A DNA stretch of 64,000 bases from Candidatus Bathyarchaeota archaeon A05DMB-2. Its GTDB lineage: Archaea; Thermoproteota; Bathyarchaeia; Bathyarchaeales; Bathycorpusculaceae. A model generated the notes under the pieces. That model had not been told where the DNA came from. It searched no databases and saw nothing but the letters and a program-made list of their open reading frames with translations. Below are positions 2 through 23,269 of the stretch, piece after piece; position 1 is the stretch's first letter; every line of letters starts with the position of its first letter. The translations under genes were made by a program, and so were the position numbers. The stretch is from positions 62,001 to 126,000 of the forward strand of contig JAAKEZ010000003.1 in the NCBI GenBank assembly GCA_018475625.1. The letters run 5' to 3'.

Positions 2-352
2 AAAAAGCCTCTTCAACTGCTCGAAAAAATAAAAGAAAACCTAGAAAGGCTGAACGAAAAAATGGAAGTCATGATTGAACTTCAAAAACACGGCAAAAAA
101 GACACGCAGCCACTTCAAGACGCATCACTGGACGTTATGACACTGCTCTCCATGCCTGACCACTTGAGAAAAACAGCCATGACCATCTGCAGATGTGGAA
201 GAGCCACAGCAGAGGAAATTGCACACCAGACAAACCGTGCGCGAGCAGTAGAAAGCGCGTATCTGAATCAACTAGTCATCATGGGTTACCTCAAGAAAGA
301 GCGCAAAGGAAGAAAAGCTTACTTCTACGCTGACAGAGAAAGCCAAGGGTGA
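2..352 (+). CDS. Winged-helix DNA-binding protein, 5' end cut by the window
   Basis: The frame is open from base 2, so the start lies at or before the window edge; an internal ATG is at 62. A Leu/Glu/Lys-rich helical stretch (likely coiled coil) precedes a winged-helix domain with the pattern of a recognition helix (AEEIAHQTNRARAVESAYLN) and a basic wing (KKERKGRKAYFY). It is probably a transcription regulator or a DNA-binding partner of the next gene. Its stop overlaps the GTG start of the ParA-like ATPase (GTGA), so the two are translationally coupled and may form a two-gene unit like a partition or positioning pair. The exact family is not recognised. Confidence 0.7.
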   Translation, partial: KKPLQLLEKIKENLERLNEKMEVMIELQKHGKKDTQPLQDASLDVMTLLSMPDHLRKTAMTICRCGRATAEEIAHQTNRARAVESAYLNQLVIMGYLKKERKGRKAYFYADRESQG

Positions 353-1140
353 AAAAAGAAATGAATAGAATAATAGCCGTACACTCATACAAAGGCGGAA
401 CCGGCAAAACACTGCTGTCAGTAAACTTGGCAGCCACATTAGCGAAGCATGGGAAAAAAGTCGGACTTTTCGACCTTGACTTTCGAGCACCAAGCCTCTT
501 CGCCATATTCAAAATGCCAAAAGCCGAATATTGGCTCAACGATTACCTAAACGGTGCATGCGACATCAACAAAGTCCTCATCGACCTGAGCCCAAGGATC
601 CAGGGAAAAAACAACTTCTTTGTGGGTCTTGCAAACCCAGCAACCGAGGCAATACGGGACATGAGCGCGAAAGACCGAAAATGGGAAATGCGAGCGCTAG
701 GAAGACTCTTGTCCTTGCGGAACACGCTACTCAACGATAAAGAGTTTGACTACCTGATTTTCGACACCAGTCCCGGGCTTCAGTACTCCTCCATAAACGC
801 AATTGTCGCTGCCGACTTCGTAGTTGTGGCAACAACTGGTGATAGGTCGGACGTGGACGGAACCAGCCGAATGCTTCGCGAACTGTACAACCTGTTTGAG
901 AAGAAAACTGGGCTGGTGCTGAACAAAGTTCTTGATTCCTCCTCAAAATCGAAGAAAGACGAGATGCACCGGAAAGTTAAGGATGTCTATCAGGTTCCGC
1001 TACTGGGGCTGGTTCCATGCTTCTGCGAGGTTCTTCGAGCTGAAGGCAACTTCATATTCGCTCAGGACAAGTCAGATCACCCATTCACGAAGATTCTGGA
1101 TGAGATGGCGAAGCGAATAGAGAACAACGAGGTCAACTAG
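349..1140 (+). CDS. ParA/MinD-type P-loop ATPase
   Basis: The deviant Walker A motif KGGTGKT (about residues 15-21), the following LDF switch region and a Walker B-like strand (YLIFDTSPG) place this in the SIMIBI ParA/MinD/Mrp class. Such ATPases position proteins, DNA or membrane complexes by ATP-dependent dimerisation. The 263-residue length is normal. The GTG at 349 overlaps the upstream stop, which supports that start; an ATG at 361 is the alternative. The HTH partner just upstream would fit a ParA-like role, but no parS-like repeats were seen nearby. A MinD-like role is equally possible. Confidence 0.85.
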   Translation: MKKEMNRIIAVHSYKGGTGKTLLSVNLAATLAKHGKKVGLFDLDFRAPSLFAIFKMPKAEYWLNDYLNGACDINKVLIDLSPRIQGKNNFFVGLANPATEAIRDMSAKDRKWEMRALGRLLSLRNTLLNDKEFDYLIFDTSPGLQYSSINAIVAADFVVVATTGDRSDVDGTSRMLRELYNLFEKKTGLVLNKVLDSSSKSKKDEMHRKVKDVYQVPLLGLVPCFCEVLRAEGNFIFAQDKSDHPFTKILDEMAKRIENNEVN

Positions 1141-2128: not shown

Positions 2129-2350
2129 TTATTCTTCTTGGTTTATTAACCGTTTTGGGTTGAAGATTTTTTCGAGTTCTTCGGATGTAAGCAAGCCTTT
2201 TTCCAGCGCAATTTCCTTCACGGAGCGCCCCTCTTTCAGTGCCTGCTTGGCGATTTTGCTGGCTTCCAGATAACCTATGTACGGCGACAGGTAAGTGGCT
2301 AAAGACGGGTTCTTATCCACGTAGTCGGCGCAACGCTTAGGAGGCTGTAG
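2129..2350 (-). pseudogene. 3' remnant of a class II fumarase/aspartase-family lyase
   Basis: The frame encodes the C-terminal domain typical of the fumarase C/aspartase superfamily: SPYIGYLEASKIAKQALKEG, then a KEIALEKGLLTSEELEKI segment and a final NPKRL. Only about 70 of some 460 residues remain. Reading further upstream on the minus strand meets a stop, and the catalytic GSSxMPxKxN loop is absent. The piece therefore looks like a decayed or truncated gene. It abuts the promoter region of the NrdD-like gene on the other strand. Confidence 0.65.
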
Positions 2351-2493: not shown

Positions 2494-4701
2494 TTGGCGA
2501 ACCTTCCACACCGCGCACGCGGCGTAAAAGTCCTAAAGGCCGTATCATCACCCCTTAGACTGCAAATCCTGAATTTACTCTTCGATAAAAACGCCCTCTC
2601 CTACACAGAACTCATGAACGAACTCAAAATGAACCCAAGTCGAGACGCAGGAAGATTCGCCTACCACCTAAAATTCCTCCTAAAAGCCGACCTAGTTGAG
2701 GCTGACGCAGAAGCAAAAAAATACTTCCTAACCGACCTCGGAAAAATGGTCATAGACGTTGCCGACAGAGTGGAGAAAAAAGCCGTCAAACCACGCGGAA
2801 TGCTCGTCCGCACCTCACATTTCACGCTTGAAGAATTCGATGCAAACAAAATCTCCAACTCCCTCATAAAAGAAGCCAAAGTCCCACCGGAAATAGCGCA
2901 AAAAGCAGCAAAACAGGCAGAAAAGCGACTGCTCAAGTCGAAAACAAAGTATCTAACAGCCCCACTAATCAGAGAAGTTGTCAACGCAATTCTGGTCGAA
3001 AAAGGCTTCGAAGACTACCGACACAAACTCACCCGCTTGGGAATGCCAGTCCACGAAGTAACTGCCCTAGCAGACACAAACACCACACAAAACTCGGAAG
3101 CCAAACTATCCGCAGCAGGAAACGCCGTTTTCAGCGAGTACACGCTCCTAAACGTGTTTCCGCGAGACATCGCCGACGCACACGCTTCTGGCGCACTCCA
3201 CATAGAAGACCTGGGCACATGGATTATGAAACCCAAAGAAATAATGCACGACCTAAGATTTTTCCTTCAAAACGGCATCAAACCAGACAACCCCCTCCAA
3301 CTTTCCACACCACCACCCAACAGTCTTGAATCCGCACTGTCAACAACATTCAACATGCTTCTGCACACCAGCAAAGAAACAAGCGGAACACAGACATGCA
3401 GCTACTTCAACGTGTTCCTCGCACCATACGCAAAAGGAGTCGACGCCACAAGAATAAAGGAAAGCCTCCGACTGTTCATACTGAACCTGAACCAGCACGC
3501 GAACGCTACGCTGGGCTTGGAACTAACGGTTCCAACATTTATCGCGGACAAACCAGCCATCGGACCGCAAGGAAAAACCATCGGCAAATACGCTGATTTC
3601 GTCAGCGAAACCCAGCTTTTAGCGTCACTTATCATTGAAGTATTCATGGAAGAAAGCATTCCGAAACCCCTCCTCAACCCAACCATCGTCATCAAAATAG
3701 GAAACGACGCCTTAGCAGACCAAAACGCAAAACCCATCCTCCTAAAAGCACACGCGCTGGCAATAGCAACAGGAACACCCAACTTTGCAGCGAAACAAAA
3801 AGAAAAAGAAGCCGCAGTTTTCTCCGCCTCCGGGCTCAAACTTACCCCAGATTTGACAGGCGACTGGGAAACCGACACTCTAAGAACAGGATGCCTCGGA
3901 ACCGTGACCATAAATCTACCTCGAATCGCACACGAATGCGAAAAAGACAAAAACAAATTCTTTGAAATCCTGCGCGAAAGATGTGAAATGGCAACCCGCG
4001 CTCTCGGAATCAAATACAACGCACTCAAGCAACGCGGAAAACATTTACTACCGTTCATGCTGCAGACCCGAAACGGCGACACCTACTTCAGACTGGAAAA
4101 CTGCACACGCGCAATCAACTTCGCAGGTTACAAGGAAACTGTGGAAACTCTTATCGGAAAAAACATAACCGACGAAGAAAACACCAAATTCACCGAAGAA
4201 ATCGCACAGAACATAGCGGCTTTCAGGCATAAGATAGGCAGAAAACATGGAAAACGCCTATACCCCGCAATGCTGCGTAGCCCCGAAGCTTCTGAACGAC
4301 TCGCACAACTGGACATGGAAAAATACGGTGTTGCTAAAGTGAAGTTTTCGGGGACTCGGGAGAAACCTTACTATTCGACTTCGAAGCGGCTGAGCCTTAA
4401 AGCTGGCGATTTTCTCTGTGTGCCGTCTGAGCAGTTGGACGCTGAGATGAAGCTGAAGGGGCTGAGCACTGGCGGAAGCTTGAGCATAATTGAACTTGGC
4501 GAAGCCGATTGCAAGCCTGAAGAACTGCTTAGCTTAACGGCGCATCTTGTCGTAAGTCAAGCGTTAGAGTTTTTCACTTACAACCGCGTAAGCACGTACT
4601 GCGGCAACTGTCGGAAAAGCTGGTTCGGAACCCTGCATAAATGCCCCTCATGCGGATCCATGAGCACTTTGACGGTTTTTAACCGTTTCGCCTTTACCTA
4701 A
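2494..4701 (+). CDS. NrdD-like protein with HTH and ATP-cone, lacking the glycyl-radical motif
   Basis: Domains in order: ArsR-like winged helix (about 8-95), ATP-cone (about 105-195), then an NrdD (class III anaerobic ribonucleotide reductase) large-subunit fold (about 200-700). NrdD landmarks include HIEDLG, YFNVFLAPYAKG and GCLGTVTINLPRIA. A zinc ribbon with Cys 703, 706, 717 and 720 ends the protein. In active NrdD the ribbon is followed by an RVxGY glycyl-radical loop; here the protein ends FNRFAFT with no glycine. The Cys-Cys-Arg stretch usual before the GxLGxVTINLP segment is not visible. The protein may sense nucleotides and bind DNA rather than reduce ribonucleotides. The start is TTG 2494 with GAGGG upstream. 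No activase (NrdG) is adjacent. Confidence 0.8.
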   Translation: MANLPHRARGVKVLKAVSSPLRLQILNLLFDKNALSYTELMNELKMNPSRDAGRFAYHLKFLLKADLVEADAEAKKYFLTDLGKMVIDVADRVEKKAVKPRGMLVRTSHFTLEEFDANKISNSLIKEAKVPPEIAQKAAKQAEKRLLKSKTKYLTAPLIREVVNAILVEKGFEDYRHKLTRLGMPVHEVTALADTNTTQNSEAKLSAAGNAVFSEYTLLNVFPRDIADAHASGALHIEDLGTWIMKPKEIMHDLRFFLQNGIKPDNPLQLSTPPPNSLESALSTTFNMLLHTSKETSGTQTCSYFNVFLAPYAKGVDATRIKESLRLFILNLNQHANATLGLELTVPTFIADKPAIGPQGKTIGKYADFVSETQLLASLIIEVFMEESIPKPLLNPTIVIKIGNDALADQNAKPILLKAHALAIATGTPNFAAKQKEKEAAVFSASGLKLTPDLTGDWETDTLRTGCLGTVTINLPRIAHECEKDKNKFFEILRERCEMATRALGIKYNALKQRGKHLLPFMLQTRNGDTYFRLENCTRAINFAGYKETVETLIGKNITDEENTKFTEEIAQNIAAFRHKIGRKHGKRLYPAMLRSPEASERLAQLDMEKYGVAKVKFSGTREKPYYSTSKRLSLKAGDFLCVPSEQLDAEMKLKGLSTGGSLSIIELGEADCKPEELLSLTAHLVVSQALEFFTYNRVSTYCGNCRKSWFGTLHKCPSCGSMSTLTVFNRFAFT

Positions 4702-4707
4702 AGTTTG

Positions 4708-5640
<933 letters not shown>

Positions 5641-5803: not shown

Positions 5804-6202
5804 TTATGGTGGGGGTCTTTTTTGGGCGTACTGGTATCTGCGTGGTTTTCCTTCACGAGTTAATATTCCATCTTTAACCAAATCTATTAATGCATGTGCT
5901 ACGGCGGTGCGGTCGTAGTGGAATCCTCGTCGTGCCATTTCGCTGTGGACCTCGCTTAAGCCCTGCGGCTTGCTGAACCAGCCTTCTTCCCAGAGTTTCT
6001 GAATGACGCCCTTGCAGGTTTCTGCGCGTGGCGGCGGCGCGGCTCTTTCAGCGAGGCGGGTGTCTTTCATGCGTTCGGTGACGGTGGCGAGTATGCGGTC
6101 CACGGCGGTTTGCAACTGGTCTTCTTGGCTTTCGATTTCGAATTCTATGTCGCCGATTTTCATTTTTACACGTATGGGCGGTTTTTGCTGTGGTTCTGGC
6201 AA
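5804..6202 (-). CDS. Small protein with C-terminal winged-helix-like domain
   Basis: The 132-residue product starts at TTG 6202, eight bases after a clear AGGTGA ribosome site. The N-terminal part (IRVKMKIGDIEFEIESQEDQ) is acidic and beta-rich. The C-terminal part resembles a winged helix used for predicting reading of short DNA motifs (GLSEVHSEMARRGFHYDRTA, then a basic tail). No named family is assigned. It is transcribed away from nurA-herA across a short gap containing a perfect inverted repeat, so it could regulate itself and that operon; this is inference. Confidence 0.7.
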   Translation of the reverse strand: MPEPQQKPPIRVKMKIGDIEFEIESQEDQLQTAVDRILATVTERMKDTRLAERAAPPPRAETCKGVIQKLWEEGWFSKPQGLSEVHSEMARRGFHYDRTAVAHALIDLVKDGILTREGKPRRYQYAQKRPPP

Positions 6203-20887: not shown

Positions 20888-23269
20888 TTATTTCATGAAT
20901 TCCATGAGGCTTTTTGCCGCCTGTTCTTTCCGAGCCGCGATTTTAAGCAAGTCCTCCTCGGTTACGCCGAAAAACTCCAGCACTCGCGCTGCAGCCGGCA
21001 CAACCTGCTTGGAAACGTAGTAATCAACGTCTGCATCGTCGATTGTGGCGAAAACATGCGGTTTTGCTCTATCGTAAAGTTTTCCTTCGCCAGTTGAGAT
21101 TATATAACCTACTTTGTCACCGACCGCCAAGCGCCAGCCCCTGCTCTTAAGCGCCTTCGCTGCTTCCACATGAGAAGCTTTCACAGCGTATTCCTCCACG
21201 GGTTTCGTCAGCGTCTTCCAGATAATGAGGTCGCGGAACGGCACCTTCCGTAGCTTAAGCTCGTCGACAACGGATTGCACGTAGCTGACCGCTTTCTGGG
21301 ATGATTTCTCCTTCAAAATTATCTCCAATACGTGTTCTTGAACCTTCTTGGCGACCTCTGCCCAGTCTCCGCGAATAACCTCCAACCCGACTATGTCCAA
21401 GCTTCCGTCTTTGCGGAGTCCAGCGTAGCGTTTTTTGGCTTCAGTGAAGAATATGCGCACGTAAACTTCGCGTTCCACATCTAAGCCAAGCTCTTTTTCG
21501 ATTTCTTTTTCCAATTCACGTGTTTTCTTCTCGTCGTAGGTGACGAAGAGGCTGTCGGTGTCGCCGTAAACCACCTTCAACCCTGCCTTCTCAGCCATGC
21601 TTATCGCGGTTTGAATGGTGTGCCTTCCCCATGCCGAAGCCGCTTCAGCGACTGGTTTAATGTACCATCTTGCTCCAATCCAGCCTGCGTAACCGTAAGC
21701 AGCGTTCGTGATGACCTTGACTGCCTTTTGCCTGGCGTCTAAGACTCTGTACTCGACGGATTCGGGATTTAGCGTTTTCATTTTGTCGCGGATTTCGCTT
21801 CGCACGCCGATTAAGTAAGTTAAGATTTCCTTGTAGAAGCCCGGCGGAGCCTTTCGGAATTTGTGTTTGACTTCTGGCGCAGTGAAAACTCCGCTGGCTG
21901 GCTCCTGCTCTTTGGGGGAAACGTACGTGTCTGGTGAAAGGTTGTACGCTATCATAATGTTTGGGTACATGGATTTGAAGTCTAAAACTGCTATGTTCTC
22001 GTGCAGTCCCGCCTGCGGCTTAAGCACCAATCCGCCAGCGTAAGGTCTGTACGGTTGCTCAACACGTTTCGGGATGAGTTCGCCAATTTTCTGAGCGTGC
22101 TTGATGAGAAACCACTCAACCCGGAACCCCACGGCGGCCGTCATCACGTGGTCTAAGGGCAAGCTTACGAGACTTGAGAACTGCATCGCAAAATCCAAGA
22201 GCAACTCAATCATGCCTTTTACGCTGCATGCGCTGTCCATGCTGAACTGCTTGAGCGCAGTGCGTTTATGCTTGTCATCCCAGTAATCTGCAAAGTCCAC
22301 ATCCTCTATAACAGGGCTTTCCGCGGTTTTTGCCACACCAAGGTGTTCCGCGAGGTTCCGAAAGGTTTTGACTTTGACTTCTGGAAACTGGTCTGCGAAA
22401 TCGGCGATGTCAATGTTTGCCATGCCTGTGAGCGAAACATGCCCATAAACGCTGGTGTGAGGTTCCGTGCAGGCCCTGTCAATGTCCAGCTTTATTCCCA
22501 GCGTGCGGCATCTTTCTCGGAGGTAGTTCCAGTCAAGCGTGTTTGTGCCATAGCCAGCGATGATGTCTGGGTCGAGTTTCTGCACGTACGCGACGAATTC
22601 TTGTATGAGGGATTTGTCGTTGTTGTCCGTGTTTGGGAGGAACTGTCTTTCTTCACCCGTGCTGGCTACGGTAGAGATGATTATTACGGGGTTTCGGTCT
22701 GGTTTTGGAGCGCCTTCGCGGCTGTAGCAGGTCATATGGAAGCTGAGGGTCCGCAGGGACGGAACATCCGATTTTTCAAGCAGTCTTGGCGGCGACTTGG
22801 CTGCGTAGATTTTGTCCGCTCTAGTGCATTGAGCGCTTTCTTCTTCATCAGCGTCTACTTCATGCCATGCGCAGGGAACAACGTTGTTGTCGATGAGGTA
22901 ACGCATGGACAAGCGAATGTCGTCTTCGAGGCAGTCTTTTATGCCTTCGAGGTTTCGAAGAGCCCTTGCAAACTTCGCTTTTTCGGCTGGGTTTCTGCAA
23001 TAAACCTTTACTGTTTGCACTGGCTTCCCGAAAAGCTTGCGTTCAGCAACTTCCAGCTTCACAGTTGCCGCGCCGTGGATTTCTCTGATTTCCTCAGCAA
23101 CCTTTGAAGGTTCAAAGTCTTCTGCCACCACGGCGTAGAAGTACTCAACAAAGCTTCTGTCAACAACCAGCACTCGGTTGCCTTTTTCGTCGATTCCCCA
23201 AAGCCACAGTTCTGTTGCATCGTTTGTGGTTTCTGAGTTAATGTCCAGAAGCCAAAAAGTAACTTTCAC
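20888..23269 (-). CDS. polB: Family B DNA polymerase with degenerate exonuclease site
   Basis: Polymerase motifs are intact: DFKSMYPNI (430-438), KVITNAAYGYAG (518-529) and YGDTDS (568-573). The 793-residue length suits an archaeal replicative PolB. The proofreading site is not intact: Exo I, normally DIE, reads HMT (178-180); Exo II keeps an Asp (GYGTNTLDWNYL, 239-250); Exo III, normally YxxxD, reads FSMDS (342-346). The enzyme should polymerise but not proofread well, or not at all. An uncharged exonuclease is known in crenarchaeal PolB2, but that family also alters polymerase motifs. Start ATG 23269. Confidence 0.9.
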   Translation of the reverse strand: MKVTFWLLDINSETTNDATELWLWGIDEKGNRVLVVDRSFVEYFYAVVAEDFEPSKVAEEIREIHGAATVKLEVAERKLFGKPVQTVKVYCRNPAEKAKFARALRNLEGIKDCLEDDIRLSMRYLIDNNVVPCAWHEVDADEEESAQCTRADKIYAAKSPPRLLEKSDVPSLRTLSFHMTCYSREGAPKPDRNPVIIISTVASTGEERQFLPNTDNNDKSLIQEFVAYVQKLDPDIIAGYGTNTLDWNYLRERCRTLGIKLDIDRACTEPHTSVYGHVSLTGMANIDIADFADQFPEVKVKTFRNLAEHLGVAKTAESPVIEDVDFADYWDDKHKRTALKQFSMDSACSVKGMIELLLDFAMQFSSLVSLPLDHVMTAAVGFRVEWFLIKHAQKIGELIPKRVEQPYRPYAGGLVLKPQAGLHENIAVLDFKSMYPNIMIAYNLSPDTYVSPKEQEPASGVFTAPEVKHKFRKAPPGFYKEILTYLIGVRSEIRDKMKTLNPESVEYRVLDARQKAVKVITNAAYGYAGWIGARWYIKPVAEAASAWGRHTIQTAISMAEKAGLKVVYGDTDSLFVTYDEKKTRELEKEIEKELGLDVEREVYVRIFFTEAKKRYAGLRKDGSLDIVGLEVIRGDWAEVAKKVQEHVLEIILKEKSSQKAVSYVQSVVDELKLRKVPFRDLIIWKTLTKPVEEYAVKASHVEAAKALKSRGWRLAVGDKVGYIISTGEGKLYDRAKPHVFATIDDADVDYYVSKQVVPAAARVLEFFGVTEEDLLKIAARKEQAAKSLMEFMK

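Follow-up and report, generated by a model that had tools for sequence, protein, structure and literature searches.

An archaeal NrdD-like protein without its active site as a probable regulator of ribonucleotide reductase genes

Background

What is the function of a protein that keeps the whole body of an anaerobic ribonucleotide reductase (RNR), carries a DNA-binding domain in front of it and has lost the residues needed for catalysis? This question is raised by an open reading frame at positions 2494–4701 (forward strand) of the window, by which we mean the entire 64,000-nucleotide stretch that was analysed; the genome it comes from has a size of 2.48 Mb. The original prediction, made from the sequence alone, described a NrdD-like protein and supposed that it might be a nucleotide-sensing regulator evolved from a reductase, with a role like that of NrdR. 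We consider it probable that the window protein is a dead class III RNR that was turned into a transcription regulator of RNR genes. The best reading of its role is that of a predicted nucleotide sensor, NrdR-like in function and different in build. No earlier description of the family, here called the dead-NrdD family, was found in the open-licence literature.

Results

Domain composition and fold

The open reading frame encodes 735 amino acids and starts with TTG; the starts of its relatives line up with this codon, and several of them are ATG. Pfam searches of the window protein returned DUF7347 and HTH_5 at residues 13–88, an ATP-cone at residues 104–175 and NRDD at residues 196–731 (231 bits). 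The N-terminal domain is an ArsR-like winged helix-turn-helix (2530–2757, forward strand) that matched HTH_5 (PF01022) with 30 bits against a cut-off of 22; HTH_metalloreg (NF033788) scored 32.7 bits, below its cut-off of 55. The ATP-cone, which we delimit to residues 104–186 (2803–3051, forward strand), matched PF03477 with 29.8 bits (cut-off 25.8). It is followed by the NrdD barrel body (3079–4686, forward strand), without NxN flap and without catalytic cysteines, and the NrdD equivalog TIGR02487 reached 248.5 bits, below its cut-off of 326.35. All four cysteines of the C-terminal zinc ribbon (C703, C706, C717 and C720; 4600–4653, forward strand) are present in the window protein; they were invariant in the A1 alignment and kept in 153–154 of the 156 members of the dead-NrdD family. 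TIGR00244 (NrdR) was absent from the NCBIfam matches of the window protein, and no N-terminal zinc ribbon directly precedes the ATP-cone.

An AlphaFold2 model of the window protein had a mean pLDDT of 82.7, and its top structure matches were class III reductases. The best PDB match was Streptococcus thermophilus NrdD (StNrdD; E 4.4e-28), and T4 NrdD matched the model with a TM score of 0.76 on the target. A homologue from an ammonia oxidiser also gave a class III fold in the structure search (E 1e-19). Domain matches, fold and cysteines therefore bear out the composition originally proposed, with NrdD body, ATP-cone and zinc ribbon kept and an ArsR-like winged helix fused in front.

Loss of the active site

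The window protein ends with CPSCGSMSTLTVFNRFAFT. When it was aligned with relatives and intact NrdDs, the terminal FNRFAFT (4678–4698, forward strand) took the place of SRV[TV]GY of the intact NrdDs, and the radical glycine of RVxGY aligned with F734, the penultimate residue. Residues were then counted over 156 distinct dead-NrdD family members and 17 intact NrdDs. E249 (3238–3240, forward strand) stands at the position of T4 Cys79, where cysteine was found in 17/17 intact NrdDs and 0/156 family members. G447-L448, in the context FSASGLKL (3832–3837, forward strand), stands at the catalytic Cys-Cys of neighbouring NrdDs, with L448 at the position of the thiyl-radical cysteine. The absence of both the glycyl-radical loop and the catalytic cysteine pair, as first read from the letters, was thus confirmed by alignment.

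The family is not uniformly blank at these positions. Cysteine was found at the radical-Cys position in 29/156 members and glycine in the radical-Gly column in 13/156, in none of which an aromatic residue followed the glycine; the column was occupied by S, A, G, N, T, L, F or a gap. However, the Cys79 equivalent, the radical cysteine and the radical glycine occurred together in 0/156 family members as against 17/17 intact NrdDs. An NxN motif, which in the flap of NrdD grips the triphosphate and base of the substrate (PMC11226230), was present anywhere in the flap linker in only 3/156 family members compared to 17/17 intact NrdDs. T4 Gln114 of the specificity site aligned with no conserved residue.

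A 3' frameshift, which the original prediction had named as a possible refutation, or a missed glycyl loop was ruled out: all close relatives share the C-terminus and the convergent pyrB gene ends 6 nt downstream. Although they match the NrdD profile, dead-NrdD genes cannot encode anaerobic reductases, a warning for annotation wherever NrdD-profile matches of this type are met.

Distribution and origin

A search of one genome per GTDB species yielded 561 relatives of the window protein. Among the best 80 of these 561 that were listed, the named best relatives came from Bathyarchaeota-type metagenome-assembled genomes, a few being titled Crenarchaeota or Nitrososphaerota. Full-length orthologues occur throughout the class Bathyarchaeia and over most of the phylum, so the fusion of helix-turn-helix, ATP-cone and NrdD that was to be sought in other genomes is widespread. 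In a maximum-likelihood tree, 45 dead-NrdD members were separated from 20 intact NrdDs by one branch with support of 100/99. The dead-NrdD family is monophyletic and has a single origin.

Genomic neighbours

Elsewhere in the window genome, a canonical nrdR-nrdD-nrdG operon encodes an intact NrdD (RVVGYL) together with NrdR and NrdG, which supplies the second, intact copy that the original prediction suggested looking for; a PF02867 reductase is encoded as well. No activase gene was found beside the window gene, and in the window genome's own family the dead-NrdD gene adjoins no RNR gene. Other families differ in this respect. An intact nrdD gene lies directly downstream of the dead-NrdD gene on the same strand in at least 14 genomes, from at least seven families (f4, f6, f9, f21, f22, f23 and f47). 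By eye, a CPRC redoxin-like reading frame, SSGCPRCAMLKEW, was seen between the two genes in L063 and L174, possibly a reductant for the adjacent NrdD, and relatives in f4 have coding-looking gaps of 440–900 nt between them.

In the ammonia oxidisers the neighbour belongs to another RNR class. Archaeal amoA was detected in 8/8 genomes tested of families f29, f58 and f61, and membership in these families added six more genomes to the set (n=14). A class II nrdJ gene was directly downstream of the dead-NrdD gene in 14/14 of these genomes, its identity being established in one of them (L099; TIGR02504, 731 bits), and the eight ammonia-oxidiser genomes tested have no other PF02867 gene. A PF02867 gene also adjoins the dead-NrdD gene in G211 and G535. 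The downstream slot is thus filled by different nrdD clades or by nrdJ and not by one orthologue.

The dead-NrdD protein was the only NRDD-family member in the 14 ammonia oxidisers and in G031, G211, G028, G013, G535 and G426. None of the activase models scored above cut-off in any of these genomes, TIGR02495 in the ammonia oxidisers included, and winged helix and cone were both kept where the dead-NrdD gene was the sole gene of its family. With no other NRDD-family gene and no activase above cut-off in these genomes, the protein cannot act there as an anaerobic reductase or partner an NrdD. True NrdR was found above cut-off in all eight genomes tested of the window genome's family and in G185. 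It was found in none of the 14 ammonia oxidisers nor in the other lineages tested, which gave at most weak matches to the ATP-cone only.

These data bear on whether the protein might instead tune an active NrdD, as a non-catalytic accessory subunit or as its partner in a dimer, the winged helix being of minor importance. Such a subunit would fit the retained NrdD fold, with the body through which NrdD dimerises, and the frequent position of the gene beside an active nrdD. However, winged helix and cone persist in the genomes just named without another NRDD protein, the winged helix is the best-conserved part, and the neighbour in ammonia oxidisers is nrdJ, of another class. As the gene is retained in genomes that lack an active NrdD, we rejected a subunit of NrdD as the general function and regard it as unlikely.

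The gene next to the dead-NrdD gene in the window, pyrB (aspartate carbamoyltransferase by domain match; 4708–5637, reverse strand), is convergent and probably outside the unit. This arrangement is found in nearly all genomes of the window genome's family and in some distant ones, which might suggest a regulator of pyrimidine synthesis and not of RNR. The pyrB gene is convergent to the dead-NrdD gene and not co-transcribed with it. Moreover, two genomes (L174 and L178) have the order dead-NrdD gene, nrdD and convergent pyrB, so that pyrB would have come to lie next to the dead-NrdD gene in the window because the intervening nrdD was lost; this loss is the simplest history of the locus. With nrdJ as the neighbour in ammonia oxidisers, we consider control of pyrimidine synthesis very improbable. 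A 132-aa winged-helix-like protein found by domain search between pyrB and a NurA-HerA pair (5804–6202, reverse strand) is kept beside pyrB in L097, L155 and L158.

There is an even smaller chance that the protein is still a radical enzyme, either with the glycine replaced by Ala, Ser or Thr, as described for aminoacyl radical enzymes (PMC11528403), or with another chemistry. Some members do have A, S or T in the glycine column, and the cysteines at the radical-Cys position could be read in the same way. But the residue in the glycine column varies, throughout the window's own family the protein is truncated at this point, and the Cys79 equivalent is gone from all members. The enzymes of PMC11528403 have a conserved cysteine and adjacent activases, and class III RNRs were found to have only glycine at the radical site (PMC11528403), whereas no activase model was above cut-off in the ammonia oxidisers. 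An active radical enzyme was therefore rejected on residues and activase absence.

Selection and the ATP-cone

The dN/dS ratio between the window gene and a same-genus orthologue (L004) was 0.135 overall, 0.022 for residues 1–100, 0.023 for residues 101–190 and 0.184 for the body. Median identity of the dead-NrdD family to the window protein was 0.71 in the winged helix, 0.70 in the cone and 0.44 in the core. Winged helix and ATP-cone are the best-conserved domains of the family. A decaying pseudogene or assembly artefact, which the truncated C-terminus and lost active site might bring to mind, has next to no probability given such constraint and full-length open orthologues in more than 100 species-level genomes.

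Within the cone, R106, E127, T155 and R160 were identical in 156/156 members. Residues were matched to those of known cones by counting from the hairpin. On this basis E113 (154/156) corresponds to Glu15 of E. coli NrdA, which contacts adenine, and Y175 (149/156) to Tyr101 of StNrdD, which packs against the base (PMC12662201); R160 corresponds to Gln79 of StNrdD and His59 of E. coli (PMC12662201). The hairpin itself differs. Known ATP-cones contact the phosphates through the Lys-Arg of a VxKRDG hairpin (PMC12662201), and the window cone has VRTS, with Thr-Ser where KRDG has Lys-Arg. Binding of adenine by the dead-NrdD cone looks plausible from these matches, with altered handling of the phosphates, and because the Lys-Arg pair is missing the nucleotide specificity of the cone cannot be assumed. 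The intact NrdDs beside the dead copy in L067, L075 and L082 likewise carry a variant cone with a VRTS-type hairpin and not VxKRDG.

A conserved promoter element

The palindrome AGTTTAAACT (2440–2449, no strand assigned), 44 nt before the start codon, is a candidate operator and/or TATA box. In the window genome's family, YTAANGTTTAAACTCT sits upstream of the dead-NrdD gene, and TTTAAAC was found in 76% of 67 dead-NrdD promoters of this family compared to 4% of 295 other genes at the same loci. The 10-mer AGTTTAAACT has three exact copies among the 9-mer matches listed for the window genome, and only for the copy at 2440–2449 does a gene begin at promoter distance. Near nrdR-nrdD and the PF02867 gene of this genome no exact match to the 9-mer GTTTAAACT was found; its other copies in the genome were mostly within genes or away from promoter distance. 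No shared element between the dead-NrdD promoter and the promoter of an adjacent nrdD was evident by eye.

Upstream of the dead-NrdD gene in four families (f4, f13, f21 and f23) we found a 16-nt element, CTNTAATTTTTTAAAC, which forms an imperfect dyad (TTTAA-N4-TTAAA). When 34 genomes were scanned for exact matches, 15 were found, all 35–68 nt before a dead-NrdD gene. This uniqueness proves little, as some of these promoters had served to define the motif and any given 16-mer should occur only about 0.01 times per genome. For this reason, and because the element overlaps the TATA position, uniqueness was downgraded as evidence for an operator. The conservation of the element between families is informative, as their proteins share well under half of their residues. 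The element overlaps the expected archaeal TATA site and so perhaps represents an unusually conserved promoter and not an operator; it could serve autoregulation as an operator, be a TATA box of a specialised kind, or combine the two. In two ammonia-oxidiser families (L210, L211 and L216–L218) the homologue is preceded by a recurring near-palindrome, TATTTTACAAAGTA.

Other features of the window

About 150 nt upstream of the dead-NrdD gene lies an isolated C-terminal fragment of a class II fumarase (2129–2338, reverse strand; FumaraseC_C, 84 bits) with no intact body in frame, a gene remnant. Further upstream, a 96-aa winged-helix-like protein, which matches TrmB weakly, overlaps with the beginning of a ParA/MinD-type ATPase (62–1140, forward strand). 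The reading frame at 20888–23269 (reverse strand) encodes a 793-aa DNA polymerase of family B.

Discussion

Adjacency to nrdD or nrdJ and persistence without an active NrdD support the suggestion of the original prediction, and the protein is probably a regulator that evolved from a reductase. What is new is the phylum-wide scale, including ammonia oxidisers, the link to two RNR classes and the persistence without an active NrdD.

For the dead-NrdD protein we infer DNA binding, a ligand, the sign of regulation and autoregulation, as follows. The N-terminal winged helix would bind DNA. The protein would probably be a dimer joined through the NrdD body, with two winged helices contacting the AT-rich dyad that overlaps the promoter of the dead-NrdD gene or of its operon. 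Where nrdD or nrdJ is adjacent, the regulated unit would include it; in the window genome, where the adjacent nrdD was lost, the targets would be in trans. The ATP-cone would sense adenine nucleotides, likely the balance of dATP and ATP, perhaps with help from the old effector and substrate pockets. Nucleotide binding may shift the cone and hence the wings, switching DNA binding; in StNrdD the position of the cones with ATP and with dATP differs by about 40 angstroms (PMC12662201), which offers a ready mechanism for such a switch. High dATP would most likely lead to repression, as assumed by analogy with NrdR (PMC9110341).

It is also possible, though rather doubtful, that the whole dead RNR serves as a multi-input sensor, in which the cone and the former specificity site and substrate pocket would each read a different (d)NTP, and that it is the principal RNR regulator of ammonia oxidisers and of much of the Thermoproteota where NrdR is missing.

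No account of how deoxyribonucleotide supply is controlled in archaea without NrdR was found in the open-licence literature. The dead-NrdD protein is a candidate for this control, its gene being directly upstream of a reductase gene in every ammonia oxidiser examined.

Comparison with known systems

NrdR (TIGR00244) is like the dead-NrdD protein in joining an ATP-cone to a DNA-binding module, in the linkage of its gene to RNR genes and, as predicted here, in nucleotide-dependent control of RNR transcription. Dead-NrdD genes are linked to RNR genes in several families but not in the window's own. NrdR uses a zinc ribbon for DNA binding and has 140–220 aa, whereas the dead-NrdD protein would use an ArsR-like winged helix and has about 735 aa with a whole dead NrdD; unlike NrdR, its cone has no Lys-Arg hairpin. 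A dead-NrdD regulator would add a second case, of independent construction, and would show with unusual clarity how an enzyme can turn into a regulator of the pathway to which it belonged.

Class III NrdD (TIGR02487, PF13597) shares with the family the ATP-cone, the ten-stranded barrel and the C-terminal zinc ribbon. Compared to it, the dead-NrdD protein has gained the winged helix and lost the NxN flap, the Cys79 equivalent, the glycyl loop and usually the radical cysteine. ArsR/SmtB regulators have the same HTH_5-type winged helix, but no separate metal-sensing module was seen in the dead-NrdD protein, whose sensor part is RNR-derived. Many family members resemble aminoacyl radical enzymes in having Ala, Ser or Thr at the glycyl position. 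Those enzymes keep the catalytic cysteine and an adjacent activase (PMC11528403), while in the dead-NrdD family the Cys79 equivalent is missing from all members and the residue at the radical position is not conserved.
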